This document shows positions 1 through 12,774 of a stretch of 12,774 bases of DNA, piece after piece. The notes below the pieces were generated by a model. That model saw only the letters and a program-made list of their open reading frames with translations, had not been told where the DNA came from and did not search any database. Source of the stretch: Acidobacteriaceae bacterium (GTDB lineage: Bacteria; Acidobacteriota; Terriglobia; Terriglobales; Acidobacteriaceae); NCBI GenBank assembly GCA_030040395.1, contig JASHTU010000376.1, positions 1-12,774 on the forward strand. Reading direction: 5' to 3'. Positions within the stretch are counted from its first letter, which is position 1. The number at the start of each line of letters is the position of its first letter. The translations under genes and the position numbers were made by a program.

Positions 1-233
1 TTTCCAGGTTAATTGCCTCGAGGAGTTTCACTTTTTGGGGGAACGGGAGATTTCACATTATTGGGTCGCCCCATTCGCAAAGCAATGACTCGACAGGTCG
101 AGAGATTGCGCCTTTTATGTCAGCCCACATTGGAGCTTGTGGGTTTACGCATCATGTGAAAGATACTGCATTCCTGATGCAGGCGACAATCGTTGGCGTT
201 TCCATCGACTCGCGTTCCCGGCAGATGTTTTTC
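1..233. other. Left-edge intergenic stretch, no gene seen
   Basis: This stretch lies downstream of the GH2 gene and runs to the window edge. I see no supported gene in it. One plus-strand frame is open from the edge to a stop at 279-281, but it has no good start, no ribosome site and no recognisable motif. The only structure is a short inverted repeat, CCCACA at 124-129 and TGTGGG at 138-143 with an 8-nt loop, which lacks a T-tract on either strand and so is not a convincing terminator. Confidence 0.5.
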
Positions 234-2723
234 TCAACCGCCGGCAGTTATGACGGTTTCCGCGCCTGTCAGAGACGGTGAAGAAGCGGAAAGGCGCAAG
301 GTTCCTGGCTGGCCATTGGATTGCACCAACGCCAGCGCGCGTCCAAAATACGCCTTGCGCCGGTTCCCCTGGTAGCTCTCGTGGCTGACGGGATCGCCGT
401 TGTCCAAGCCCAAAATTCGTCCCGGGCCGCTGAGTGCGAAAACCACTTCGTTGTCGGCAGTAGGCACGACGCGCCCCTGGCTGTCGACAATCTCGACCGT
501 GACATGAGAAACGTCGTCCCAATGCGTGCCGATTTGCGCCCTGTCGGCAGTGAGGCGAATGGCCGCCGGCTCACCGGTTGTGCTTTGTTCCACGGTCAGC
601 ACGTTCTGGCCACCTTTTGCGCCTACGGCTCTAAGCGTGCCGGGCTGGTAAGGCACGGACCACGTGAGATGAAGGTCGCCCGTGGTCTGCGGCACTCTGG
701 CTCGAGCCGGGAAGTGTCCATACTCGCCTTCCATGCCCGGCTCCGGAAACATGAAGCCCTGGACGCCAAGGCTTTTGCCGTTCAGGAACAATTCGACCGT
801 ATCGCAATTCGTGTAGCAGATTACGGGAATCATCTCGCCCTCTTTGCCGGCCCAGTTCCAATGCGCAGACAGGTGCAGCACAGGGACCTTTGTCCACACG
901 CTCTGGTAAAAGTAATAGCCGTCATGGGCAAAGCCGCAGGTGTCGAGAACGCCGGACTGCGATCCCTTGGCCGGCCATCTTGCTTCGCCGAGGTAGGCGA
1001 TGCCCGTCCACATGAAATCGCCGATCACGTAGTCGTAGACCTGGGTGAATCGTTGCAATTGCTCGGTGGCGATGCGTAAGTTGGATTCGAAGCCGCCGTA
1101 AGGAGAGGCGCTGCTGCCCGGGTAATAGCCGGGCATGGCTGGGTTCTCTGTTCCGACCATAAGCCGCTGCGGGAAATCATGACGATCGACGCTGTAATAC
1201 TTTTCCCGCCGGTCGCGCCAGCGGCCAACGTAGTTGTAGCCCACCACATCGAGCATGGCCAAAAACTCCGGCAGAACGGCCTGGGGCTCCGCGGCGATGC
1301 GGTCGCAGGCCACCGTCACCAGCCGGGTTGGATCCATGGGGTGCAGGATGCTCAGTAACTCGCCAAGCGTCTGCGGGCCGCGGCGAACCACCTGGTCGGG
1401 GACTTCATTGCCGGCGCTCCAGAGAACAATCGAGGGGTGGTTGCGGTCGCGCAAAATCATGTCGGTCAAGTCGCGCGCTCCCCACTCGTCGAAGTACTTA
1501 TGGTAGCCAAATTGCGGGGTTTGCAGCTTGGGTTCGCGCCACTCGTCGAAGGCTTCGGCCATGACCAGGAAGCCCATGGTGTCGCAGAGGTCGAGAAACT
1601 CCGACAGATGCGGATTGTGGCTGGTCCGGATGGCGTTGCAGCCCATCTCCTTGAGAAGCGCGAAGCGCCGCTCCCAAACTCGCGCTGGAACCGCCACGCC
1701 CACACAACCGCCATCATCGTGCAGGCAAACCCCATTCAGCTTCACGCGTTCGCCATTCAGGAGAAATCCCTCGTCGGCGTTGAACTCAATCGACCGGATG
1801 CCGAAAGGCGTCTCCACGGCGTCGGCCTCCGCGTCCTCGTGGCGCAGGGTCTGGCGAACGGCATAAAGGTACGGCATGGCGGTGGACCAGAGGCTGGGAT
1901 TGGTCACGGTCAGGCGCTGGGTAAAAACATGGCCCCCGCCGGCGGCGATATTTGCAGTGGCGTCCGCCGACTGCACGACATTTCCTTCCCGGTCAACAAT
2001 GGCGGTGGTCAGGGTGGTTGGCGCGGACTGCTTCAATTCATTCCGCACCCGCGTGGTCACTTCGACGGCGGCGCTCTCTTTGGTGATTTGCGGGGTGGTG
2101 ACGAATGTGCCCCATTGCTCGACGTAGACAGGCCCGGTGTTGATGAGCCAGGTGTGCCGGTAAATCCCGGAGCCGGAGTACCAACGCAAATTGGGCTGGT
2201 GTGAGTTATCCACGCGCACCGCAACCACATTTGGCTCGTCGCCAAAATGAAGGTGGGGGGTGAGATCGTAGTAAAACGTAGAGAAGCCGTAGGGGCGGTA
2301 GCCCAGATGCTGGCCATTGATCCACACATCGCTGCACTGGTAGACGCCGTCAAATTGAAGCACGAGGCGCCGGCCCGCATCGCTTTGCGGAAGCCGAAAG
2401 GTCTTGCGGTACCAGCCGATGCCGGTGGGCAGATAGGCGCCTTGGGAGCCACAGGGCGCATCTTCGCTAAAGGGTCCGGCGATGCTCCAGTCGTGAGGCA
2501 AGTCCAGCGCCGTCCAGTTCTCATCGGCAAAATCCGGAGATTGGGCGTTTGGAAAATCTCCCTTTATGAACTTCCAGCCGGCGTCGAAAACGGTCTTCCT
2601 GGAGGGTGTGAAAGCATTGGCGGTTTGGCCGCCGGCGGACGCATTGTTCAAGCCGATCACGGATGCCGCCCCGGTTATCGCTGCATTCCTCAAGAAAGTG
2701 CGACGCGTCAGACCTTCACTCAT
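234..2723 (-). CDS. Tat-exported glycoside hydrolase family 2 (beta-galactosidase-like)
   Basis: Predicted 829-residue retaining glycosidase of family GH2, probably acting in the periplasm or outside the cell on beta-galactosides or related plant or polysaccharide oligomers; the exact substrate cannot be read from the sequence. The N-terminus has a twin-arginine signal (T6-R7-R8-T-F-L-R12, then an alanine-rich hydrophobic stretch to about residue 31). A GH2 sugar-binding jelly-roll follows (about 44-200), then an immunoglobulin-like domain (205-310) and a TIM barrel (about 315-600). The barrel has L-N-G-V-x-L-H-D-D (H335), R-T-S-H-N-P (366-371), the acid/base in W-S-A-G-N-E (E440) and the probable nucleophile in G-T-E-N (E526), so it looks catalytically intact. 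The C-terminal part resembles the DUF4982 (about 612-690) and terminal Ig-like (about 715-828) modules common in Bacteroidota and Acidobacteriota enzymes. ATG is supported by AGGAG 8 nt upstream. No neighbour is a sugar transporter or another glycosidase. Confidence 0.93.
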   Translation of the reverse strand: MSEGLTRRTFLRNAAITGAASVIGLNNASAGGQTANAFTPSRKTVFDAGWKFIKGDFPNAQSPDFADENWTALDLPHDWSIAGPFSEDAPCGSQGAYLPTGIGWYRKTFRLPQSDAGRRLVLQFDGVYQCSDVWINGQHLGYRPYGFSTFYYDLTPHLHFGDEPNVVAVRVDNSHQPNLRWYSGSGIYRHTWLINTGPVYVEQWGTFVTTPQITKESAAVEVTTRVRNELKQSAPTTLTTAIVDREGNVVQSADATANIAAGGGHVFTQRLTVTNPSLWSTAMPYLYAVRQTLRHEDAEADAVETPFGIRSIEFNADEGFLLNGERVKLNGVCLHDDGGCVGVAVPARVWERRFALLKEMGCNAIRTSHNPHLSEFLDLCDTMGFLVMAEAFDEWREPKLQTPQFGYHKYFDEWGARDLTDMILRDRNHPSIVLWSAGNEVPDQVVRRGPQTLGELLSILHPMDPTRLVTVACDRIAAEPQAVLPEFLAMLDVVGYNYVGRWRDRREKYYSVDRHDFPQRLMVGTENPAMPGYYPGSSASPYGGFESNLRIATEQLQRFTQVYDYVIGDFMWTGIAYLGEARWPAKGSQSGVLDTCGFAHDGYYFYQSVWTKVPVLHLSAHWNWAGKEGEMIPVICYTNCDTVELFLNGKSLGVQGFMFPEPGMEGEYGHFPARARVPQTTGDLHLTWSVPYQPGTLRAVGAKGGQNVLTVEQSTTGEPAAIRLTADRAQIGTHWDDVSHVTVEIVDSQGRVVPTADNEVVFALSGPGRILGLDNGDPVSHESYQGNRRKAYFGRALALVQSNGQPGTLRLSASSPSLTGAETVITAGG

Positions 2724-2731
2724 GAGTTCGG

Positions 2732-2736
2732 CTCCT
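2732..2736 (-). promoter_or_regulatory. Ribosome binding site of the GH2 gene
   Basis: On the minus strand AGGAG lies 8 nt before the ATG at 2723. It supports this start, which also places the twin-arginine motif at residues 6-12, where a Tat signal should be. Confidence 0.7.
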
Positions 2737-2779
2737 GCATCCTGTATTTAGGTTATGGCGACAGCCGCTCCTCCTGGCG

Positions 2780-2793
2780 CCAAACAAGTTTGG
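2780..2793. promoter_or_regulatory. Operator-like dyad upstream of the GH2 gene
   Basis: CCAAAC at 2780-2785 and GTTTGG at 2788-2793 form a perfect 6-bp inverted repeat around AA, 56 bp before the GH2 start codon. Its size and place fit a site for a sugar-responsive repressor, but no regulator gene is next door and I could not place a good -35/-10 pair around it. Function is inference. Confidence 0.3.
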
Positions 2794-3262
2794 TGATCAT
2801 CGATCGTTAAGTCGCGGTTGCAAAATCGCGCCGATCCAAACGGGCGCCGCTCCGAGGCCGCGGAGAGAGCAAATGCGCAGCGAACCATGACTAAACTTGG
2901 GGTTGATCCTCTCTCGCAGAATCGGTTGCCATCCAATGCCATCCAACCGGACGCTACTTCGCCGCCGCATCGTCCGCTTCCAGGCGGTTGCCTGATTTTT
3001 GGTTAAACGCGATCGGGCAGGAAAGCAATTCGCAGCGATCGTAGATCACCGTGTATACGTTGTCAATGTGTTCTCTCGTAATTCCGCCGAAGATGGTGGC
3101 CTATTGTTGAGCCTGCGTGATTGAGGACGGCTCGGCCTGTTGAAATTCGCGCGCGCATGAGCAAGCCCAGCGCGAACGCACTCGCGCAGAACCTCGTGTT
3201 CGAATGCGGCGAAGACGGCCAGCGGTGCAGCATGGCGGGGCCCAGCGCAACTGAGATTCGCG

Positions 3263-3312
3263 AAAGGGCGTGACGGCGTACTTTTACAAAGGGCGTGACC
3301 GCATTCTTTTGC
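3263..3312. repeat. Two tandem 25-bp repeats
   Basis: Two abutting 25-bp copies, 3263-3287 and 3288-3312, share 21 of 25 positions; both begin AAAGGGCGTGAC and keep a CTTTT block near the end. The second copy runs directly into TATGAT, so the pair occupies the place where an activator would bind upstream of a promoter. No other copy was noticed in this window. Confidence 0.75.
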
Positions 3313-3318
3313 TATGAT
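3309..3318 (+). promoter_or_regulatory. Extended -10 promoter-like element
   Basis: TTGCTATGAT holds TATGAT (one mismatch to TATAAT) at 3313-3318 preceded by TGC, the extended -10 signature. There is no acceptable -35 hexamer at 16-18 bp; that position is filled by the tandem 25-bp repeats. No convincing gene follows within 500 bp, so it could drive an untranslated RNA or be chance. Confidence 0.3.
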
Positions 3319-3782
3319 CGGGAATCCGGATCCCATCCTTGGCGGATGGCGGGCTTTCGGTTAGGAGGTACACTGAGAACGTAGATTCGTGTGAGCCCTT
3401 GTCGGCCTCGAAAGCAGAAATGGTTGCTTTGCTGCTAAGGGAAGCGGCAAGGCGTACTCTTTTGATTTCTTTTGCTCCCACAAGAGATGTTTTGACCATC
3501 TGCGAGGGAAAAATCCATTGAGGCGCGTTTGCGGGACGATCGTGAACCAGACGCCGTTTGGAGCCGGACGGGGAGGAGTTGATCACCGCTGATCATCACC
3601 ATTACCACGCCGCTCCTGTCCTCGCGAAATCAGCTATGCTGATCGGAAAGGCAAGTATCAAAATCAAGAAAACGATCATTCTTTTCAAACCTTAGGGCTC
3701 CTGCCGCGGCGCCATTGCGTCCGGCGGCCCATGGATGAAATATGACGGCGCGGGCGCCGGTGGTCCGGCCGATCGGATTCCA

Positions 3783-3809
3783 GTTCTCTTTATTTTCTGG
3801 TTCTCTTTA
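3783..3809. repeat. 10-bp direct repeat before the response regulator
   Basis: GTTCTCTTTA occurs at 3783-3792 and again at 3800-3809, 17 bp apart start to start, within 50 bp of the regulator ATG. Such spacing can mark a regulator's own binding site or a slipped duplication. No functional evidence beyond position. Confidence 0.35.
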
Positions 3810-3829
3810 CCGGTGACGGGAGTGGTGCG

Positions 3830-4528
3830 ATGGCGAGTGCGAAGGGTGGACCCATTCGCATTGGCGTGGTGGCGGACGAACCCATCCGCGTAGCGGGCTT
3901 GGCGAGCATTGTGGAGCAGCCCACGCAAAGGGGGCAGGCACAGCTCACGCTTGTAACCGGGAGCACCGAGGAACTACTCGCCGGCCCGCCGCTCGAGTAC
4001 ATCATCATCGACCTGCACGCAACATCCGGCTTCGTGTCGCTCGAAACCGTTCGGAGGGCCCGCCCCGACATCCGGCTGATCGTCATCGGCCCTCAGGGCG
4101 ACGACGAGTTGGTAATGAAGTCGATCATTGCCGGGGCCCGCGCCTACCTGGACCTCACCGCCGGTCCTGAGGTTGTGCGCCAGGCAATCGATGTCGTCAC
4201 CAGCGGATCAATCTGGGCCCCGCGCAGACTCCTTTCACGGCTCATTGACCGGCTACTCAAGGTACCCGAGGCAGGCTTCTCGGGCAACCCTCAGCTCACC
4301 CTCCGGGAGCGGCAAGTGCTGGAACTGATCATGATGGCGCGGTCGAACCGGGAAATTGCATCGCAGTTGGGGATCGAGGAGCGCACCGTGAAGGCCTATG
4401 TCGGCCGGCTTATGCGCAAGACGGGGGCCGACAACCGCATCAAACTCTCGATGTTCGCCATGAACATGGCGTCGCTCGCCGGGGCCAACCAAGCCGGGTT
4501 GCGCGAAGCTCATCAGATAACTAGTTAG
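3830..4528 (+). CDS. Orphan NarL/FixJ-type response regulator, degenerate receiver
   Basis: Predicted 232-residue cytoplasmic DNA-binding regulator. Residues about 8-128 have the receiver layout: V-A-D-E-P-I-R-V-A-G-L (13-24), the phospho-acceptor position in I-I-I-D-L (D61), and G-A-R-A-Y-L (102-107). A LuxR-type helix-turn-helix covers about 155-212 (L-T-x-R-E-R-Q-V-L-E-L-I, N-R-E-I-A, and recognition helix T186 to A200). The receiver is unusual: D61 remains, but only one acid (D16) of the usual pair is at its place, the switch Thr/Ser position is G87 and the invariant lysine position is L109. That argues for phosphorylation-independent control or a different ligand. No histidine kinase is adjacent. 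GGGAG at 3818-3822, 7 nt before the ATG, supports the start. An intrinsic terminator lies 100 bp after the stop. Confidence 0.88.
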   Translation: MASAKGGPIRIGVVADEPIRVAGLASIVEQPTQRGQAQLTLVTGSTEELLAGPPLEYIIIDLHATSGFVSLETVRRARPDIRLIVIGPQGDDELVMKSIIAGARAYLDLTAGPEVVRQAIDVVTSGSIWAPRRLLSRLIDRLLKVPEAGFSGNPQLTLRERQVLELIMMARSNREIASQLGIEERTVKAYVGRLMRKTGADNRIKLSMFAMNMASLAGANQAGLREAHQITS

Positions 4529-4628
4529 TAATCCTCATAGGTTACTAAATGGCAATGCCCTTAAGTACTCTTGTGCTATTGGGATCGTTCCCTGACTCTG
4601 TTGATAGAAACAACGCAGATCTGGGGAA

Positions 4629-4679
4629 AGGAGTTCCCAGGCGACATCTTCAATGTGGCGCGGGAACTCCTCTTTTTTT
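4629..4679 (+). terminator. Rho-independent terminator after the response regulator
   Basis: AGGAGTTCCC (4629-4638) and GGGAACTCCT (4662-4671) are perfect 10-bp complements, followed by C and seven T residues (4673-4679). The 23-nt apex can itself form ACAT/ATGT pairing. It lies 100 bp after the regulator stop on the same strand and is the clearest terminator in the window. It leaves a rather long 3' untranslated region. Confidence 0.85.
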
Positions 4680-4792
4680 GCAACTCTCATCACAACCCCG
4701 GCAAGATTTGCGTTAGGGCCGAGCCCTCCCCCTTTGAATTTACACGTTGGTGGCATTCGCCTGAAAGGCGTCTGCCGGCGTATTTTCGCACC

Positions 4793-4882
4793 CGGCACAC
4801 TTTCGTTACGCGGCGCACTTTCGTCACGCGGGGCACTCTCGTTCCCCGGCGCAACCTGGCCGCCCGGCGGAGCCTCCGTCGA
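4793..4882. repeat. Degenerate 18-bp minisatellite, about five units
   Basis: Units start at 4793, 4811, 4829, 4847 and 4865, each beginning CGG. The first two, CGGCACACTTTCGTTACG and CGGCGCACTTTCGTCACG, differ at two positions; similarity then decays unit by unit. Because 18 is a multiple of three, all frames across it stay open and give six-residue repeats, which explains the spurious arginine-rich frames here. Confidence 0.75.
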
Positions 4883-4983
4883 ACTCCTCGCGTTCTGCCG
4901 GGATTGGGGGCCATGTCTTCGGCGGCCGATTTTTCATAAGGTGAGGATGCGCGGTCCCGCGTGGATGCTGTAGGCTGTTCGAC

Positions 4984-5009
4984 AAGGGCGGCTCGTTGCC
5001 GAGGCCCTT
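4984..5009 (+). promoter_or_regulatory. Leader-region stem-loop upstream of the SYLF gene
   Basis: AAGGGC (4984-4989) pairs with GCCCTT (5004-5009); inside it, after a two-base GG bulge, CTCG pairs with CGAG around a TTGC loop. It is followed by a pyrimidine-rich stretch but no T-tract, so it is a poor terminator. It could be a leader structure of the downstream gene. Confidence 0.3.
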
Positions 5010-5087
5010 ATTCCCTTCCTCTAAGCCTGCGGGCCGGGCACCAGGATTAAGGCTGCAGCTTTGGGATTCGACACCAACACTATGCAT

Positions 5088-5107
5088 CCGCGGCAAGTAG
5101 TCCGCGG
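5088..5107 (+). promoter_or_regulatory. CCGCGG hairpin next to the SYLF ribosome site
   Basis: CCGCGG occurs at 5088-5093 and 5102-5107. Being self-complementary, the two copies can form a 6-bp GC stem with an 8-nt loop ending 4 nt before the AAGGA ribosome site (5112-5116). Such a hairpin could protect the 5' end or influence translation; alternatively the repeated TCCGCGG is a protein-binding direct repeat. Confidence 0.35.
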
Positions 5108-5125
5108 AGTAAAGGAACGGATTTT

Positions 5126-5815
5126 ATGAAGAAGACGCTCGCCTCCATCTGCATCTGCTTTCTGGCGACATTCATGGCCTTTGCGGCTTCCTCGCAACAA
5201 GATTTGCAGAACCGCGTTGACCAGGCAAAGGTGGTCCTCGACCAAATCATGGGCGCGCAAGACCGCACCATTCCCCTAGACATTCTCCATTCGGCGACGT
5301 GCGTGGCCGTGGTTCCGGGGTTGGTTAAGGGGGCATTTGTTTTTGGCGCGCAATACGGGCAGGGCGTGGTGACGTGCCGCACCGGCCACGGCTGGAGCGG
5401 GCCGGTCTTTATCCGGATGGCTGGCGGCTCGTTCGGCTTTCAAATCGGGGGGCAGTCCACAGACCTCATCCTGGTTGCGGTAAACGATCGCGGCTTCCAG
5501 GACCTGCTCAAGAACAAGTTCAAGATCGGCGGTGACGCTTCCGCTGCCGCGGGTCCTGTAGGTCGAGCCGGCCAAGCGTCGACGGATTGGAAGATGAACG
5601 CAGAGCTCTTAAGCTACTCGCGCAACAAAGGCCTGTTTGCCGGGATCGATCTGGACGGGACCAGCGTGACCCAGAACTTCGACGACACGCAGACGTACTA
5701 CGGGGCGCCGGAGAGATTCGAGAACGTGCTGCGGGGCAACGTAGCCGTCCCGCAGGGCGCGGTAGAGTTCGTGCGGACGGTGGCTCACGACTTCATGAAG
5801 GCGAAAAGCCAGTAG
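5126..5815 (+). CDS. Secreted SYLF (Ysc84-type) lipid-binding domain protein
   Basis: Predicted 229-residue exported protein. Residues 1-20 form a classical Sec signal (M-K-K, hydrophobic core, A-F-A then A-S-S-Q). The remainder is one SYLF domain (also called Ysc84 or DUF500), known in eukaryotes to bind phosphoinositides and actin; bacterial members are mostly periplasmic or outer-membrane associated with unclear function. Family hallmarks are D-I-L-H-x-A-x-C-V-A-V-V-P (52-64), the glycine-rich K-G-A-F-V-F-G-A-Q-Y-G-Q-G (68-80), S-G-P-V-F-I (91-96) and the name-giving S-Y-S-R-N-K-G-L-F-A-G (163-173). Length matches bacterial homologues and the domain looks complete. ATG is supported by AAGGA at 5112-5116, 9 nt upstream. 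It stands alone on its strand and ends 84 bp from the convergent VWFA gene. Confidence 0.92.
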   Translation: MKKTLASICICFLATFMAFAASSQQDLQNRVDQAKVVLDQIMGAQDRTIPLDILHSATCVAVVPGLVKGAFVFGAQYGQGVVTCRTGHGWSGPVFIRMAGGSFGFQIGGQSTDLILVAVNDRGFQDLLKNKFKIGGDASAAAGPVGRAGQASTDWKMNAELLSYSRNKGLFAGIDLDGTSVTQNFDDTQTYYGAPERFENVLRGNVAVPQGAVEFVRTVAHDFMKAKSQ

Positions 5816-5816
5816 A

Positions 5817-5840
5817 CGCCGGAAGGGGCCCGATCCGGCG
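5817..5840. terminator. Possible hairpin between convergent genes
   Basis: CGCCGG (5817-5822) and CCGGCG (5835-5840) form a 6-bp GC stem one base after the SYLF stop, in the 84-bp gap before the convergent VWFA gene ends. No T-tract follows on either strand, so it could only act as a weak or factor-assisted end for both transcripts. Confidence 0.3.
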
Positions 5841-5899
5841 GCGATCAACAGGCTCGAGTCAATGAAGCCACGGAAGCCACGCAGGAGAGAGGGTCGAGG

Positions 5900-7207
5900 C
5901 TACTCCACCTCCTGCTTGGAGCGATAACCGTCGCGATAGATGAGATCGTATTTGAGCGGACGGTGCTTCTCGTCCTGCATGCGCAGGGGATTGCCTTCGT
6001 CATCGACGAGCATGACCCGCAGCTTCCGGTACGTGCCGTCCTGCTTGGCGTCAGTGGGCTGATAGACCAGCTCGTACTTGGAGCGGATGTTCTGGTTGAT
6101 CACGCGCATATCGTCGGGGAGTTCGCCGATGAATTTGGGGTCGAAATACATGCCGCCGGTGAGATTGGCAAAGGTACGCATCTGGTTTTCAGCCTGCAGA
6201 TAGGTCATATCGCGCATGCCGCCCATCATGCCGCCCGAACCCTCGGTCATCTCCAGAAGCAGGCCGCCGGTGGAGATGCTGAAAATGGTGATGTCGCGTG
6301 AGGCTTTCACGCGCTGCAAGATCTTATCGAGAGTGAGCTTGGACATGGTGTCCACGCCGGAAGCGATGAGGATGATGTACTTCTGGCCTTCGATGCGGGA
6401 GAGACGGTCGAGGCCTTCGGAGAGCGCGTCGAAGACGTCGGTTTCAGAAAACGCGGCCGGCATATAGGATTCCATGGCCAGTTGGTTGATGCCTTGCTGA
6501 ATCTGTTGCTTGTCCTGGGTAAAGTCGCTGACGATGTGGGTGTTGAGGTCGAAGGTCATCATCGCTATGTAATCCTGGGAACGCAAAGATTGGGTGAAGG
6601 CCCAGGCACTGTTGAGCATGTCGATGCGAAAGGCCCAGCCGCGGGCGGCAAACTCGCAAAGCATCAAAGCCGTGATGGGCGCCTCGATGCGCCGGAAACC
6701 CATGATCTTTTGCTCCACGCCGTTCTCGTAGACGCGAAAGTTGGCGGGCTTGAGGCCAGGGACGAAGGTGTGGGTTTTTTCGAGCAGCACGCCGACATCG
6801 ACGGTTACTTCGGGAACGTTGAGCTGGAGTGAGACATTGGGTGCGCCCTCAGGGTTTTTGAAAGTGGGTCTAGGCGGGGCCGGCGGGGCCGGCGGCGTCA
6901 CGTCTTCGGGGTTCTTTTTGGGGATGGCGATGGCGCCTGAGTCGGCGCCGGGACCTCCGGCAGCCGGGGTAGCCGGGGCCGGCTGCTGGGTCTGCTGTCC
7001 GGCGGGCTGGGACTGGTCCTGCGTGGTTTGGCCGTGGGCGCGCCAGACCGGCGCCGCCGCGAAAGCGAAAGCGGCGGCGAAGAGGACCGCGAGCGAAAAA
7101 CGGCAACGGGGAGCGGCAAAAAACGTGCGCAGCCTGAGCATAGCAACCTCTTTCCAGATAAGCATACGGGATTTCGATCGATTCCCGGTGCGTGCTCTTT
7201 GGGGCAT
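5900..7207 (-). CDS. VWFA-related Acidobacterial domain protein, degenerate MIDAS
   Basis: Predicted 435-residue exported protein of the VWFA-related family expanded in Acidobacteriota; role unknown, probably protein-protein interaction in the periplasm or at the surface. An N-terminal hydrophobic segment (about 38-54) ends A-H-G-Q, a likely signal cleavage near residue 59. A Gln/Pro/Ala-rich linker (about 62-115) precedes an Ig-like strand region (V-T-V-D-V to V-Y-E-N-G-V-E-Q, about 134-165) and a VWA-like fold (about 175-367). The metal site is lost: the usual D-x-S-x-S is C184-E-F-A-A-R-G-W, though F-D-L-N-T (219-223) and S-G-V-D-T (283-287) remain. A Met/Gly-rich loop lies at about 318-333. 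I chose ATG 7207 because GGAGG lies 5 nt upstream; ATG 7141, with AGAGG 5 nt upstream, gives 413 residues and a more normal signal peptide and is nearly as likely. Divergent from the S55-like gene. Confidence 0.88.
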   Translation of the reverse strand: MPQRARTGNRSKSRMLIWKEVAMLRLRTFFAAPRCRFSLAVLFAAAFAFAAAPVWRAHGQTTQDQSQPAGQQTQQPAPATPAAGGPGADSGAIAIPKKNPEDVTPPAPPAPPRPTFKNPEGAPNVSLQLNVPEVTVDVGVLLEKTHTFVPGLKPANFRVYENGVEQKIMGFRRIEAPITALMLCEFAARGWAFRIDMLNSAWAFTQSLRSQDYIAMMTFDLNTHIVSDFTQDKQQIQQGINQLAMESYMPAAFSETDVFDALSEGLDRLSRIEGQKYIILIASGVDTMSKLTLDKILQRVKASRDITIFSISTGGLLLEMTEGSGGMMGGMRDMTYLQAENQMRTFANLTGGMYFDPKFIGELPDDMRVINQNIRSKYELVYQPTDAKQDGTYRKLRVMLVDDEGNPLRMQDEKHRPLKYDLIYRDGYRSKQEVE

Positions 7208-7212
7208 GGCGT

Positions 7213-7217
7213 CCTCC
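7213..7217 (-). promoter_or_regulatory. Ribosome binding site deciding the longer VWFA-protein start
   Basis: On the minus strand GGAGG (plus-strand CCTCC at 7213-7217) sits 5 nt before ATG 7207. A second site, AGAGG, sits 5 nt before the in-frame ATG 7141. The first matches the anti-Shine-Dalgarno better; the second gives the better signal peptide. Confidence 0.5.
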
Positions 7218-7294
7218 AATCTTTGCGTCGGCCGTAATGGCAAAGACAGCCGACCCGAGTTGCCTCTAAAGCAGCAAACTCGCGCAGGCTGTAC

Positions 7295-7300
7295 TCTAAT
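7295..7300 (+). promoter_or_regulatory. -10-like hexamer abutting the S55-like gene start
   Basis: TCTAAT (one mismatch to TATAAT) ends 4 nt before GTG 7305. Transcription would then begin at about the start codon, which is the layout of leaderless genes and agrees with the lack of any Shine-Dalgarno string here. The -35 position (CAGCAA) is poor. Confidence 0.3.
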
Positions 7301-7304
7301 AGAC

Positions 7305-9266
7305 GTGAAACTTTCTCTGAAGCAAGCTAAATCGCGCTCGGCGGTGCTGGCGATGGTGGCTTTGGCGGTGGCCTGCCCCGTCCTGCCCGTCGCGCAAGGC
7401 TTAACCTCCGAGGCGGCCGGCGGCGCGCCGGCGCAAGCCGTTGAGACGCAGACCGCTCCACCGCCCAGCGGGCAGTTCTTCCCCCTAAGCCAGGTGCGGC
7501 GGGGCATGATGGCGACGGCTTGGACGGTCTTCCAGGGGACTAAGCCGGAACCGATGCCGGTGGAAATCCTGGGCATACTGCGCGGGGCGCGCGGGCCCGG
7601 GCAGGACATGATTCTGGCTCAACTCCACGGGACTAAGGCCGAATATACGGGCGTGGTGGAGGGCATGAGCGGCAGTCCGGTGTATATCGGCGCCAAACTG
7701 GTGGGGTCGCTGTCGTACCGCATCGGGCAATTCACAAAGGAGCCGATCGCGGGCATTACGCCCATTGAACAGATACTCGAAGTGCGCAATGTGCCCCTTG
7801 GCGCTTCCGCGAATGCGTCGGATTCGGCGAACAATTTCGGCTCCGGAACCGCTCCGGCCGATTTGGCTGCCGAGTTGAGCCTTCCGCCGCGGCCGGGCGC
7901 ATCCACGCCGGGCGATGGCGGCCCCGGAGACGGTCTGGGGACCGGAAGCACGAACTTCCAGGCCATGGAGACGCCGCTGGTGATGAGCGGATTCCGTCCG
8001 GAGGCCATTCAACTCTGGGAACGGAAGATGGCCGGAACGAGCCTGGAATCGGTGGCGGCGGGGGGTATGGGCGGGTCGTCGGATGGGGACTTGAAGCCTT
8101 CGCCAGCGGCCGAAGCCACGCTGCTGCCGGGATCGGCGATCAGCGCGCAATTGGTGCGAGGCGATCTGGAGATCGCGGCCACCTGCACGATCACCTATAT
8201 CGATCCGAAACAACTGGTGGCGTGTGGCCATCCCATTTTGCAGGCAGGGCCGGTTTCGCTGCCCATGACCACGGCGGATGTGGTGACGACGCTGGCTTCG
8301 CCGCTGAACGCCTTCAAGATCATCAACACGGGCGCGACGGTGGGCGCGTTTACGCAGGATCGCGAGTCGGGGGTGCGCGGCGTGCTGGGCGCGGTGGCGC
8401 ACATGATTCCCATGCACATTGTGGTGGATTCGCCGGAGGGCCGGCGGAAGGTGAACGTGGAGGTGCTGGACTTGCCTTCGCTCACCGGCCAGGCGGTGCT
8501 TGTCGTGGTCTACGACGCGCTGCTGGAGTCGAACGAGAGCACCGCGGACACCAGCTATCACATTACGGGAAGCATCGATCTGGCTAATTATCCGCCCTTG
8601 CCGCTCGATCTATGGGCCACGGCTGGAGGAATGTTGCCGGCGCCGATGCAGGCGGCGCTGGTGACCGGGCAACACTTTGTCGATCTCTACTCGAACGACT
8701 CACGGCGGGGCGCGGTGCGCAGCATCGATTTGCACATCGACGCGATTCCCAGGCGCCTGGAGGTGGAGCTGGTGAGCGCGCGGCTGGTTTCGAACGACGT
8801 GGTTCACGCCGGCGATACGGTGATGGTCGAGGCGACGCTTCGTCCCTGGCAACAGCCGGAGAGGAACATTCGCATTCCGGTGACGCTGCCGGCCCGGTTG
8901 GACGCGGGCGGGGTGCGGCTATTGGTTTCTGACGCGGGGACGCTTGACAGGACCCTGAATCAACCGCAGGCCAGGAATCGCGCCGTGAACATCGAGACGG
9001 TTTTGGCCGAGGATCGGCGCGAGCACGCGGCCGACCGGGTCTATGTGAGCCTGCTGGCTCCGGAGGCGCAGGCGGGGATGGAAGGCGACACCCTGACGAA
9101 CCTGCCGCTTTCGGTGGTCAACGCGCTGGAGCCGGTGCGCTCGGTTGAAGAAATTCGGCTTAATGGAGAGTCGGCCGAATTGGAGGCGGAGACGCCGGCC
9201 GGCGGCGTGCTGAGCGGGTACCAGATTCTGGACCTGCACATCGTGCCGGGCGGAGGGTTAAACTAG
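7305..9266 (+). CDS. Exported SpoIVB/S55-peptidase-like protein, permuted motif order
   Basis: Predicted 653-residue exported protein related to the SpoIVB serine peptidase family (S55). Numbering is from GTG 7305, chosen because a signal peptide follows at once (K-Q-A-K-S-R, hydrophobic 12-30, V-A-Q-G); ATG 7206 is an in-frame alternative with no good ribosome site. Residues about 57-157 carry the serine lobe, with G120-M-S122-G-S-P125. A Gly/Ser/Pro-rich spacer (about 160-265) follows, then the histidine lobe (about 275-390): T-Y-I-D-P (297-301) and C-G-H309-P, continuing to G-A-F-x-Q-D-R-x-S-G-V-x-G-V-L-G. From about 480 on it is beta-rich, probably an Ig-like domain. As I recall SpoIVB, its order is His236, Asp363, Ser378; here Ser precedes His, and no Asp stands 15 residues before the Ser. 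Peptidase activity is therefore plausible but unproven. Divergent from the VWFA gene. Confidence 0.85.
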   Translation: MKLSLKQAKSRSAVLAMVALAVACPVLPVAQGLTSEAAGGAPAQAVETQTAPPPSGQFFPLSQVRRGMMATAWTVFQGTKPEPMPVEILGILRGARGPGQDMILAQLHGTKAEYTGVVEGMSGSPVYIGAKLVGSLSYRIGQFTKEPIAGITPIEQILEVRNVPLGASANASDSANNFGSGTAPADLAAELSLPPRPGASTPGDGGPGDGLGTGSTNFQAMETPLVMSGFRPEAIQLWERKMAGTSLESVAAGGMGGSSDGDLKPSPAAEATLLPGSAISAQLVRGDLEIAATCTITYIDPKQLVACGHPILQAGPVSLPMTTADVVTTLASPLNAFKIINTGATVGAFTQDRESGVRGVLGAVAHMIPMHIVVDSPEGRRKVNVEVLDLPSLTGQAVLVVVYDALLESNESTADTSYHITGSIDLANYPPLPLDLWATAGGMLPAPMQAALVTGQHFVDLYSNDSRRGAVRSIDLHIDAIPRRLEVELVSARLVSNDVVHAGDTVMVEATLRPWQQPERNIRIPVTLPARLDAGGVRLLVSDAGTLDRTLNQPQARNRAVNIETVLAEDRREHAADRVYVSLLAPEAQAGMEGDTLTNLPLSVVNALEPVRSVEEIRLNGESAELEAETPAGGVLSGYQILDLHIVPGGGLN

Positions 9267-9343
9267 AGGCAAGCGAACAATCATCTCGGTCGCAAAAAGG
9301 GATCCACGGCTCCGCCATGGAGCTGAACGAATACAATCCCGGC

Positions 9344-9349
9344 GAGGAG
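9344..9349 (+). promoter_or_regulatory. Ribosome binding site of the alcohol dehydrogenase gene
   Basis: GAGGAG ends 11 nt before ATG 9361, a slightly long but workable spacing. It favours this start over the out-of-frame ATG at 9317. Confidence 0.55.
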
Positions 9350-9360
9350 CCCACGATCGT

Positions 9361-10368
9361 ATGGCTCAAATCCAAGGACTTGCAGCACATGCGGCAGGCG
9401 CCGAACTTCTGCCTTTTCGTTATGACCCAGGCGAATTAGGCGCGCAAGAGGTGGAGATCGCCATCACCCACTGCGGCGTCTGCCACAGTGATCTTCACTT
9501 GATTTCGAACGACTGGGGTCTCAGCCAGTTTCCTTTCATTCCTGGCCACGAGGTGGTGGGCACGGTGGCCGCGCTGGGCTCCGCGGCGCGCCAGCTTGAA
9601 GAAGGCCAGCGGGTGGGGCTGGGGTGGCAATCGAACTCGTGCGGGGTGTGCGAGTGGTGCCTGCGGGGACTCGAAAACCTTTGCCCGACAGCGGAAGCGA
9701 CGTGCGTCCACCGCAACGGCGGCTACGCTACGCGGGTGCGCGCCAACGCCCGCTTCGTGGTTCCCATTCCCGAGGCGCTGGAGAGCGAACACGCGGCGCC
9801 GATGCTCTGCGGCGGCATCACGGTTTATAGTCCGCTGCGCAGCCAGGGGATCAATCCTTCGTCCCGGGTGGGGGTGGTGGGCATCGGAGGGCTGGGACAC
9901 CTGGCCATCCAGTTCGCGCGCGCCTTTGGCGCGGAAGTGACCGCGTTTTCGACCTCGGCCGGAAAGGAGGAGGAGGTGCGCGCATTGGGTGCGCGCCACT
10001 TTGTGAACACGCGGGAGTTGAAAGCCATGAAAGAAGCGGCCGGCAGCCAGGACTTGCTGTTGATCACGGCCAACGCCGACCAGGACTGGGCGGCGCTGCT
10101 TCAGGTGCTGCGGCCCACCGGAACGCTCTGCATCCTGGGTGTTCCGCCTTCCCCGGTAACGGCGCCGGCGTTCCCGCTGATCTCGGGCATACGCAGCATC
10201 CGGGGCAGCAACATCGGCAATCCGTACGGACTGCGCGAGATGCTGGATGTGGCCGCGCGGCACGGGGTGAAGGCCACGACGGAGTCTTTCCCGATGGCGA
10301 AGGCCAACGAAGCCATCGCCAAAGTGAAAAAGAACAAGGTGCGGTACCGGGCGGTGCTGACGAATTAG
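9361..10368 (+). CDS. Zinc-dependent alcohol dehydrogenase (CAD/YahK-like MDR)
   Basis: Predicted 335-residue cytoplasmic medium-chain dehydrogenase that interconverts alcohols and aldehydes; substrate unknown. Catalytic zinc ligands are visible as C41 (G-V-C-H-S-D), H63 with E64 (P-G-H-E) and C150 (M-L-C-G-G). The structural-zinc lobe is complete with C94, C97, C100 and C108. The nucleotide fold carries G174-I-G-G-L-G179-H. The segment after the second strand is F-S-T-S (196-199), with no acidic residue, as in the NADPH-preferring cinnamyl-alcohol-dehydrogenase group, so NADP(H) is my best guess. Length is typical, though the N-terminus is slightly short. It starts 94 bp after the S55-like gene on the same strand with no terminator between, so read-through is possible, but there is no functional link I can see. 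Confidence 0.93.
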   Translation: MAQIQGLAAHAAGAELLPFRYDPGELGAQEVEIAITHCGVCHSDLHLISNDWGLSQFPFIPGHEVVGTVAALGSAARQLEEGQRVGLGWQSNSCGVCEWCLRGLENLCPTAEATCVHRNGGYATRVRANARFVVPIPEALESEHAAPMLCGGITVYSPLRSQGINPSSRVGVVGIGGLGHLAIQFARAFGAEVTAFSTSAGKEEEVRALGARHFVNTRELKAMKEAAGSQDLLLITANADQDWAALLQVLRPTGTLCILGVPPSPVTAPAFPLISGIRSIRGSNIGNPYGLREMLDVAARHGVKATTESFPMAKANEAIAKVKKNKVRYRAVLTN

Positions 10369-10654
10369 CGAGCCGCGAATTGACGGTCTCTCAACTTGCG
10401 GCGCAGTTCGCATGCTGGAGACATCGGGAGCCCGGCTGCCACGAAGAAGCTGAGGCGCCGCCTTAGAGCTACCGGGCGCCAATTTTCTTTGAACGCGATC
10501 TTCCATGGATTGGCCCTGGTTCCGAACAAGGGAACGAGGGAGAATCGAGTGGGCCGGCTTCCGGGAGAAACGATCCGCTTTTTGAGGAGTCATTCGCCCG
10601 TTCGCGAGCTTGCGACTCGCCGGAATTTCTGCCCGCCCTTAAACGAGACATTGG

Positions 10655-10876
10655 TCACGTACTACGAACGCCGACGACCATCAGGCTGACTCCCGCTATC
10701 AGCGAGACGGTACTCAAAATTGGGGAGATAGGCACCGTTTTGGTTTGCTTGTGCGAGATTTGAACGGGACCCATGTCCACGTCCTTCTTCTCATGGGTAA
10801 AGCTGATTCCGCCTACGGCAAAGCCGACGACCCCGAGAATGATTAGGAGTATTCCAACGATTGTCGCTGTCTTCAC
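10655..10876 (-). CDS. Small two-helix membrane protein, 73 residues
   Basis: Predicted 73-residue inner-membrane protein of unknown function. Helix 1 covers about residues 5-25 (rich in I, L, V and G) and helix 2 about 51-70; between them is a polar loop with E-K-K-D-V-D-M-G-P-V-Q-I and K-Q-T-K-T-V-P-I-S-P. I recall similar short proteins with a D-x-G-P-(I/V)-Q loop in other acidobacteria, without an assigned role. The frame stays open upstream, to 11041, but that extension is Arg-rich and unlike a protein. GTG 10876 is chosen because GGAGG lies 5 nt before it and the first helix follows directly. It is convergent with the alcohol dehydrogenase and has no same-strand partner nearby. Confidence 0.72.
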   Translation of the reverse strand: MKTATIVGILLIILGVVGFAVGGISFTHEKKDVDMGPVQISHKQTKTVPISPILSTVSLIAGVSLMVVGVRST

Positions 10877-10881
10877 TAAGA

Positions 10882-10886
10882 CCTCC
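10882..10886 (-). promoter_or_regulatory. Strong ribosome site that sets the GTG start of the 73-residue protein
   Basis: Plus-strand CCTCC reads GGAGG on the minus strand, 5 nt before GTG 10876. Nothing comparable precedes the upstream in-frame start at 11041, so this site decides the start. Confidence 0.7.
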
Positions 10887-11177
10887 GGGTCAGTTGGATG
10901 CGAAGACCGCAACGTCCGTTGGGCGCGATTTCCCCTTGCTCTCGCGGGTTCTCGACTGGCGACTACAGGCCAATGCGCTCGCTTAAAACGATGTGAACGC
11001 TGCTGAATAGGGATAGAGGAGGGTACGCCGCGGCTCTGCACCGGTCCCCATCCCCCTTCCCCACTCCCCTTTTTGCGTTAAGTGGTTTGTTTGCAATCAT
11101 CGGCAACGTCTGCACCACTTCGGGATTCAAACTCGCATCGGACGCCGCTCCCGCTGAAGGTGAAAGGTGGGCTGTCT
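10887..11177. other. Intergenic region, no gene seen
   Basis: About 290 bp between two minus-strand genes. It includes a purine/pyrimidine-skewed tract near 11041-11075 and presumably the promoter of the small membrane protein, but I found no convincing promoter hexamers, RNA gene or coding frame. Confidence 0.45.
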
Positions 11178-11201
11178 AAAAGGCGCACGCTACACACGTG
11201 C
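11178..11201 (-). terminator. Possible intrinsic terminator of the TPR-glycosyltransferase gene
   Basis: On the minus strand, directly after the TGA (11204-11202), GCACG and CGTGC (plus positions 11197-11201 and 11185-11189) form a 5-bp stem with a 7-nt loop, followed by GCC, one more base and TTTT. The stem is short and the T-tract only four long, so it is plausible but weak. Confidence 0.35.
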
Positions 11202-12605
11202 TCATCGGGATATCATGTTTTGCCCAAGGGCATTTTTCACGTGTTGTACAACGGATTGCCAGTCATTTATTTTCGTTTGGCGAAACAGGCGAATAGAGGG
11301 ATACCAGGGGCTGTCACTCCGATCCAGTAGCCATCGCCAATCAGGTACGAACGGCAACAGAACCCACGTCGGAACTCCCAGGGCGCCCGCCAGGTGCGCC
11401 GTAGAGTTATCGATGGTGATCACCAAATCCAACGCGGCAATTTGCGCCGCGAACTCATCCACATTTGTGAACTGGTCGACATCATGATCGATGAGAACGG
11501 GCGCGTTCGCTGCCGCCGCCTGCTTTTCCAGTGTGTCGTGGCCTCCATACTGGAGGCTGATCCACCGGACTCCTAAAAGGGCGAAGAGCGGCGCGAGCAT
11601 CGATAGGTCGACGGAGCGAATGCGCCCTGTCTTCTTGTTCATCGTGTACCAGGCCAGTCCAACAGTTTTGCGGCCGTCAAAATAACGCTTGCGGAACATG
11701 GCCCGCTTCATTGTATCGGGCACTAAATAGGGCGATGTGGTAGCCGCAAAGGCTGCGCCCGATGTTCGGAACAGGCCGGGCAAGCTACCGCAAGGTAAAT
11801 GCGCCGCAATCTCCAGTTCGGGATGGTCCCCAGGGGTGAGAGCGGGGGCGATGACGACCTTGGGAAACGAGCGCGCGAAGAGCGTCTCCAGCCGCGGATC
11901 ACAATCGAGCACGCAGGAGACCCCAGAATGAATGACATCCGGGATGAGCCCGGCAAACATGATTTGGTCTCCGATTCCCTGCTCGCGCCAAATGAGCAAT
12001 CGGCCAGACGGCGTCTGCTCGCCATTCCAGCGCGGCCACGGATAAGAGCGCGGCGGCGTGTCGTGATCCAGCGTATCCCAACGGCGTTCAGAAGCGCGCC
12101 ATCCGGCTGCAAAATCGCCCCTGAGCAACAGGACCGCGGCTTCCGCAGTGGCCGCCTCGGCCAACAGGGGATTGAGGCCCGACGCGCGGCGATAGCAAAC
12201 AAGGCTGGAATCAAGCTGGCCCTGCGCCTTGAAGATGTTTCCAAGGTTCACGTAGATCTCAGCCGAATCAGGCTTGAGTTGCAGCGCACGTTGGTAACAT
12301 GCCCCCGCTTGCGATAGCTCGCCTTGTGACTGAAGAACATTGCCGAGATTGGAATGATAGGTCGGCGCGTTACCTTTGATTTCAATCGCCTTTTTGATGA
12401 GATTGACTGATTCTTCGCCGCGTCCCATTTGGAAGGCGATCATGCCGAGCAAATGCAGGCTATCTGAATGTTGGGAATCTAGGGACAGGATTTGCCGGTA
12501 AATTTGCTCGGCCTCCGCGAGGCGGCCCGCTCGGTGATGTTCAAGCGCTTCAAGGGCCATGTTCTGGACGAGAGAAGATTGTTGACGGCTCACGCTTCGG
12601 CCCAT
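11202..12605 (-). CDS. TPR-repeat protein with GT9/heptosyltransferase-like C-terminal domain
   Basis: Predicted 467-residue cytoplasmic protein. Residues about 12-150 hold roughly four tetratricopeptide repeats (A-G-R-L-A-E-A-E-Q-I-Y, then the units with Y-H-S-N-L-G-N-V-L-Q-S-Q-G and Y-V-N-L-G-N-I-F-K-A-Q-G). A linker (about 155-200) contains F-A-A-G-W-x-x-x-E-x-R-W. The C-terminal half (about 201-462) resembles glycosyltransferase family 9, the ADP-heptose:LPS transferase fold: W-R-E-Q-G-I-G-D-Q-I-M-F (206-217), G-L-A-W (316-319) and D-N-S-T-A-H-L-A-G-A-L-G-V-P-T-W (399-414), the likely nucleotide-sugar site. Related fusions are found near glycan or flagellar-modification loci, so sugar transfer to protein or envelope glycan is a fair inference; donor and acceptor are unknown. 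ATG 12605 is the first in-frame start but has no clear Shine-Dalgarno; ATG at residue 16 is an alternative. A perfect inverted repeat lies 24 bp upstream. Confidence 0.88.
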   Translation of the reverse strand: MGRSVSRQQSSLVQNMALEALEHHRAGRLAEAEQIYRQILSLDSQHSDSLHLLGMIAFQMGRGEESVNLIKKAIEIKGNAPTYHSNLGNVLQSQGELSQAGACYQRALQLKPDSAEIYVNLGNIFKAQGQLDSSLVCYRRASGLNPLLAEAATAEAAVLLLRGDFAAGWRASERRWDTLDHDTPPRSYPWPRWNGEQTPSGRLLIWREQGIGDQIMFAGLIPDVIHSGVSCVLDCDPRLETLFARSFPKVVIAPALTPGDHPELEIAAHLPCGSLPGLFRTSGAAFAATTSPYLVPDTMKRAMFRKRYFDGRKTVGLAWYTMNKKTGRIRSVDLSMLAPLFALLGVRWISLQYGGHDTLEKQAAAANAPVLIDHDVDQFTNVDEFAAQIAALDLVITIDNSTAHLAGALGVPTWVLLPFVPDWRWLLDRSDSPWYPSIRLFRQTKINDWQSVVQHVKNALGQNMISR

Positions 12606-12629
12606 TGAACGCGAGGGGATTGGCGTTCT

Positions 12630-12646
12630 TTCAGGTCGAACCTGAA
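12630..12646. promoter_or_regulatory. Perfect 17-bp inverted repeat upstream of the TPR-glycosyltransferase
   Basis: TTCAGGTCGAACCTGAA has 7-bp arms (12630-12636 and 12640-12646) around CGA and ends 24 bp before the ATG. It could be an operator for a dimeric repressor or, in RNA, a tight hairpin with a 3-nt loop close to the start codon. No T-tract follows, so it is not a terminator. Confidence 0.45.
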
Positions 12647-12774
12647 GCCGGCGCAGGACCCTTGACGGAATAGTCCCAAGCCATAGGGCGCGAAATTGAC
12701 AAACGAGCGAGTCACCCCTTCCCAGTCTAAGACAAGTCGACTCGTTGGTCGGATACGAACTGCGTGATCAGGCT
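12647..12774. other. Right-edge upstream region
   Basis: Sequence upstream of the TPR-glycosyltransferase gene, cut by the window edge. The gene's reading frame stays open back to near 12770 but contains no start codon, so I treat it as non-coding. A TTGACA at 12696-12701 on the plus strand has no matching -10. Confidence 0.4.

Follow-up and report, generated by a model that had tools for sequence, protein, structure and literature searches.

A SpoIVB-like (S55) protein of acidobacteria that probably carries its serine and histidine lobes in swapped order

The window analysed here is a 12,774-nucleotide stretch of an Acidobacteriaceae genome (assembly GCA_030040395.1, contig JASHTU010000376.1, positions 1 to 12,774 of the forward strand). 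Its gene at 7305-9266 encodes a predicted exported protein with likeness to SpoIVB, the serine peptidase of Bacillus subtilis placed in MEROPS family S55 (PDB 9LNF), and the two lobes of that protease probably occur here in exchanged positions. The reading frame opens with GTG; an alternative start at residue 17 is used in the database copy P0002, and the choice between the two leaves the argument on the lobes unaffected. The features of the gene and its product are listed below, with residue counts taken from the 281-sequence alignment described in the next paragraph.

7305..9266, + strand: gene for the probably permuted S55-like exported protein, 653 amino acids; open frame with a GTG start
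7305..7400, + strand: signal-peptide-like N-terminus, a basic start followed by a hydrophobic stretch (sequence judged by eye; model helix at residues 12-19)
7452..7799, + strand: Ser lobe, residues 50-165, matched to the C-terminal lobe of SpoIVB (306-424)
7668..7670, + strand: S122 in GMSGSP, candidate nucleophile; Ser in 279/279 aligned sequences having the position (two rows end short of it)
7800..7970, + strand: linker, residues 166-222, mostly disordered (predicted local distance difference test score, pLDDT, below 50 at 170-214)
8130..8480, + strand: His lobe, residues 276-392, matched to the N-terminal lobe of SpoIVB (about 214-305)
8163..8165, + strand: D287, an invariant acid between His-lobe strands one and two; Asp in 281/281
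8229..8231, + strand: H309, candidate general base, right after the third His-lobe strand (model strand 303-306); His in 281/281
8358..8360, + strand: D352 in a QDR motif at the end of His-lobe strand five, candidate third catalytic residue; Asp in 279 of the 280 sequences with the position
8502..9263, + strand: C-terminal region, residues 400-653, beta-rich by model strands, with no SpoIVB counterpart found (hhalign P 0.63)

An earlier note on this DNA had singled out three short motifs in the product, and the translation bears them out: G120-M-S122-G-S-P125, T297-Y-I-D-P301 and C307-G-H309-P310, with S122 lying 187 residues upstream of H309. Proteases of the HtrA/DegP and trypsin-like types (clan PA) have the His lobe ahead of the Ser lobe, and the order in the 7305-9266 protein is the opposite; it is likewise reversed with respect to SpoIVB, the Ser lobe coming first. 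A protein search with the product scored 7999 candidates, of which 7693 pass an E-value of 0.001. Conservation was followed in an alignment of 281 sequences, made up of the query with its two copies, L002 and P0002, and of relatives that are in many cases close to one another, with identity to the query reaching down to 23 percent. Ser and His stand at the positions of S122 and H309, Ser first, in all 279 aligned sequences that have both positions (query and own copies included), even though the distance between the two residues ranges from 140 to 212 with a median of 168. The pairing of the two motifs is not a matter of chance.

Existing family models detect only part of the protein. The single Pfam match is to Peptidase_S55 (PF05580), over positions 117-192 of 210 and at 25.8 bits against a cut-off of 25, and in a six-frame search the same model falls under its cut-off with 22.2 bits. 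The NCBIfam model spore_IV_B (TIGR02860) gives 19.6 bits over positions 303-377 of 402, compared to an equivalog cut-off of 305.25. From the partial extent of these matches it follows that both models see the Ser half alone. Four SpoIVBs match PF05580 over positions 2-210 or 2-209, whereas no such linear, full-length match was found for the window's protein; three relatives match over 169-192, 124-194 and 127-202. A Pfam scan at E-values up to 1 found no PDZ domain and no trypsin family in the protein, while the four SpoIVBs do carry PDZ. The likeness to SpoIVB thus consists of the profile matches of the two lobes together with the GMSGSP and Gly-His motifs, and, the lobe order apart, the protein differs from SpoIVB in its extra C-terminal region, its long disordered linker and its conserved D352.

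The swapped order emerges from profile-profile comparison with hhalign. Profiles of SpoIVB were made in three steps, from 22 Bacillus-type sequences, then from 17 sequences with three clostridial ones among them, and then with a further eleven SpoIVBs taken from faecal and viral contigs. The first two steps also differed in their Bacillus subset and alignment settings, and ten of the twelve spoIVB matches in the phage collection were used (H9 and H19 were left out). When a full-length family profile was compared with the diverse SpoIVBs, query residues 62-165 aligned with SpoIVB 318-419 (probability 97.7, P 1.3e-12) and, in the same run, query residues 289-389 aligned with SpoIVB 214-345 (probability 77.6, P 1.9e-5). 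The next-best candidate match had a P-value of 0.082, with 0.056 and 0.026 in variant runs. The His segment by itself, compared with SpoIVB 201-426, scored 46.2 (P 7.8e-7); the best of 200 column-shuffled templates reached 21.5 (P 0.013), and the reversed SpoIVB template gave a P-value of 0.43. The same two-segment picture was obtained again with the 281-sequence family alignment, and the linker (P 0.43), like the C-terminal region, had no match in SpoIVB. Judging from the limits of the segments, the cut would fall between about residues 305 and 318 of SpoIVB. These comparisons show both lobes to be homologous to those of SpoIVB in swapped order, the His lobe on profile-profile comparison only. 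The earlier note's suggestion of a circular permutation or lobe rearrangement thereby gains support, and its expectation that an S55 profile would match as two swapped segments holds with the SpoIVB alignment but not with the Pfam profile, which gives one segment.

The evidence for the His lobe is weaker than that for the Ser lobe, and this weighs against a permuted S55 protein. The first SpoIVB profile gave the Ser segment at probability 96.8 in the full-length run and 97.7 alone, but no significant His-lobe match, the expected one being second (P 0.042, probability 1.2) under another region at 2.1. In an hmmsearch against the PDB, the Ser lobe had SpoIVB itself as its best match (9lnf, E 8.9e-8), and the His half was not seen, its weak match being to 3NJJ-type peptidase chains at an E-value of 0.7. 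In the structural comparison with VIA, the Ser lobe aligns with 9lnf residues 306-424. Among the VIA matches listed, moreover, the lone His lobe resembles the C-terminal halves of trypsin-like enzymes. Such results would be expected if a true S55 Ser lobe had been joined to another, unrelated beta barrel, with Gly-His arising by convergence and no common active site. That arrangement nevertheless appears improbable, given that the His segment finds the expected region of SpoIVB with a score above all 200 shuffles and that H309 is invariant. The probability of the expected match also climbs with the diversity of the SpoIVB profile, from 1.2 to 12.3 with 17 sequences, where it ranked first, and then to 88.9.

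With SpoIVB templates built in tandem or in permuted form, the two matches stayed separate alignments, which the long linker may explain. Foldseek found no match at an E-value below 0.001 for either of the predicted models, and 9lnf is absent among the listed VIA matches of the His lobe. Among the best 120 matches of a profile search intended to widen the SpoIVB set (A3), all the names given were those of Bacillus and its relatives. The PDB chain 9lnf_A reads GMAGAP where SpoIVB has GMSGSP, so that both serines are alanine; the entry title and the available portion of the paper name only S378A.

The GMSGSPVY sequence is not diagnostic by itself, since one DNA form of it has a single IMG/VR match, and the frame around that match is trypsin-like, with a His motif ahead of the Ser, as judged by eye. 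This finding, along with VIA Z values for HtrA proteases that equal or exceed that of 9lnf, could be taken to mean that the 7305-9266 product is an ordinary trypsin-like or HtrA-type protease with a SpoIVB-like motif acquired by chance. Such an explanation is very hard to credit: the Pfam scan detected no trypsin family, the best PDB profile match is SpoIVB, and HtrA, too, has its lobes in the opposite order.

The earlier note had observed that the residue 15 before S122, at position 107, is Leu rather than Asp, which is correct, and had named D101 as the nearest acid. D101 is indeed the nearest Asp, but Glu113 is equally near position 107, and both Glu113 and Glu119 are nearer to S122. The note had gone on to propose that the third catalytic residue comes from elsewhere or that the protein is a non-catalytic relative. 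The paper on the crystal structure of the SpoIVB S378A variant reports a distance of about 24 A between Asp363 and His236 and proposes Thr393 as an alternative third residue (PMC12502668). Because Asp363 is so distant in SpoIVB, the lack of Asp 15 residues before S122 is no sign of inactivity, and the second half of the proposal is weakened. By spacing, Thr393 corresponds to S137, 15 residues after S122, which is variable (Ser 209, Ala 65 and Gly 5 in 279 sequences), and the role proposed for Thr393 is therefore not conserved here.

D352 is the candidate third catalytic residue, and D287 a less likely one; these two were the conserved acids considered. The case for a catalytic role of D352 comes from the order of the strands, those of the model around it spanning 337-353 and 356-361. 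Which part of SpoIVB it corresponds to is uncertain: hhalign sets it against the SER stretch of SpoIVB, leaving a ten-residue gap. An Asp just ahead of the strand equivalent to that near D287 is also common to the six SpoIVBs compared. The single exception at D352 is an Ile in L025, a locus (G071:C97) in a genome with two copies of the gene; the Ser and His are kept, and L025 can serve as a natural experiment on the function of D352.

A rather unlikely alternative is that the S55 fold is permuted but no longer proteolytic, the protein instead binding the beta-propeller partner described below or acting as its scaffold. In its favor, no acid occupies the position of SpoIVB Asp363, S137 is often Ala, and the gene is linked to that of the propeller protein; the first two of these points speak against an active enzyme. 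On the other hand, Ser, Gly-His and Asp are nearly constant in the 281 sequences, which would be unusual if catalysis were gone, and in the SpoIVB variant structure Asp363 is not close to His236. From the invariance of these residues, the 7305-9266 product is predicted to be active, and it is probably a circularly permuted S55-type peptidase.

The gene is widespread in its phylum: of 199 sampled genomes, counting the window's own, 187 carry it, as do 114 of 119 genera. A profile search of the 12 genomes without it found nothing, and five of these are at least 97 percent complete (G049, G130, G187, G102 and G198). PF05580 matches 179 of the 199 genomes, and because all the matches listed start at profile position 94 or later, there is no canonical SpoIVB among them. 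Among the 120 protein-search matches listed, the few with organism names are all Acidobacteriota or Terracidiphilus. A scan of genome contigs yielded at least 596 stretches, 575 of them confirmed, and the titles of the best 80, which were kept, name Acidobacteria or its genera (e.g. Acidobacteriaceae, Terriglobus roseus, Acidipila rosea). Outside the phylum, no family member was found in plasmid, phage and viral-contig collections, which suit the purpose poorly and do not show absence; the only phage-collection matches were records that also carry spoIVB matches. A comparative paper describes S55 as widely detected in acidobacteria (PMC8841776).

The common downstream neighbor of the S55-like gene encodes a beta-propeller protein with Reg_prop repeats and, by eye, hydrophobic N-termini, and this propeller gene is present in 192 of the 199 sampled genomes. 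For the 117 genomes with both genes that were tallied, it lies no more than 400 bp downstream on the same strand in 76, within 6 kb in a further 16 and elsewhere in 25. Of the 12 genomes that lack the S55-like gene, seven have no propeller match and five only weak ones (E 1.7e-6 to 4.3e-4). The reverse case is G159, where the S55-like gene is present near a contig end and the best propeller match reaches only 1.5e-8. In L055 and L056, from the window's family, one gene separates the pair. In the window's own genome, a draft that is 77 percent complete, an alcohol dehydrogenase gene follows the S55-like gene and the propeller gene is on another contig (G000:C509:2242-4059). The two genes are also on separate contigs in G007 and G171 of the same genus, and the pair seems to be separated in that genus.

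The reading that we favor, with a probability of roughly three in four, is that the 7305-9266 gene encodes an exported, SpoIVB-related (S55) serine peptidase whose lobes have been exchanged by circular permutation and which acts in the envelope with the propeller protein. The chain would run from the signal-like N-terminus through the Ser lobe, the flexible linker and the His lobe to the beta-rich C-terminal region, and the new chain ends would fall within the inter-lobe linker of SpoIVB. By analogy with other two-barrel proteases the lobes presumably pack face to face, an arrangement that could assemble an active site in which H309 activates S122 and D352, or with lower likelihood D287, supplies the third residue. 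Export is suggested by the N-terminal sequence as judged by eye, and the pairing with the propeller by gene linkage and joint absence. The protein is predicted to work in the envelope as a specific peptidase for processing or signalling, alongside the propeller protein so often encoded downstream; in general terms, it looks like a rearranged protease with a general job in the cell envelope. The persistence of a natural lobe exchange throughout a phylum would demonstrate that a two-barrel active site can survive re-wiring of its chain, and the S55-like and propeller genes can be named as a two-gene system shared by most of the genomes sampled from the phylum.

Acidobacteria are not known to sporulate, and because the Ser half alone matches the Pfam model, a sporulation-protease label ends up on proteins of such bacteria. 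The label SpoIVB peptidase S55 already exists; in the titles and abstract openings listed by literature searches on SpoIVB, S55 and permuted chymotrypsin-like proteases, no description of the lobe exchange was found. The outer-membrane proteome of the non-sporulating bacterium Veillonella parvula includes Vpar_0521, which is described as having an N-terminal SpoIVB domain (PMC5491611). To a domain search a permuted protein would look like Vpar_0521, a likeness by description only. A wider proposal, offered tentatively and with some doubt, is that these proteins form a lobe-swapped clan PA family from one S55-type ancestor, a near-core envelope peptidase of a non-sporulating phylum with the Ser122-His309-Asp352 triad in reversed order, operating as one system with the exported propeller. 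S55 would then consist mainly of envelope proteases of two-membrane bacteria, with SpoIVB as a specialised sporulation branch.

The remaining genes assigned in the window are the following.

234-2723: family 2 glycoside hydrolase
3830-4528: LuxR-type regulator
5126-5815: Ysc84-domain protein
5903-7150: divergent gene with von Willebrand A matches under the Pfam cut-offs
9361-10368: zinc alcohol dehydrogenase
11202-12605: TPR protein with a glycosyltransferase 9 match under the cut-off

The glycoside hydrolase, LuxR, Ysc84, alcohol dehydrogenase and TPR neighbors look ordinary, and scans of the window for tRNA genes and for Rfam families at the gathering threshold gave no matches. In L054-L057, from the same family, genes of one cluster lie divergently upstream of the S55-like gene, and the 5903-7150 gene may be their counterpart.

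Two observations concern spoIVB in viral and phage records. Clostridial-type spoIVB genes occur in L184-L193, human-faecal records filed under Bacteriophage sp., and for that reason the records may be bacterial contigs or prophage flanks. The IMG/VR contigs L100-L103 contain a 3' part of spoIVB that starts at the SGSP or SGAP codons; the sequence upstream of these codons is not that of SpoIVB and has a CC pair at a comparable position. A phage attachment site lying within spoIVB, at the catalytic serine, may account for this junction.
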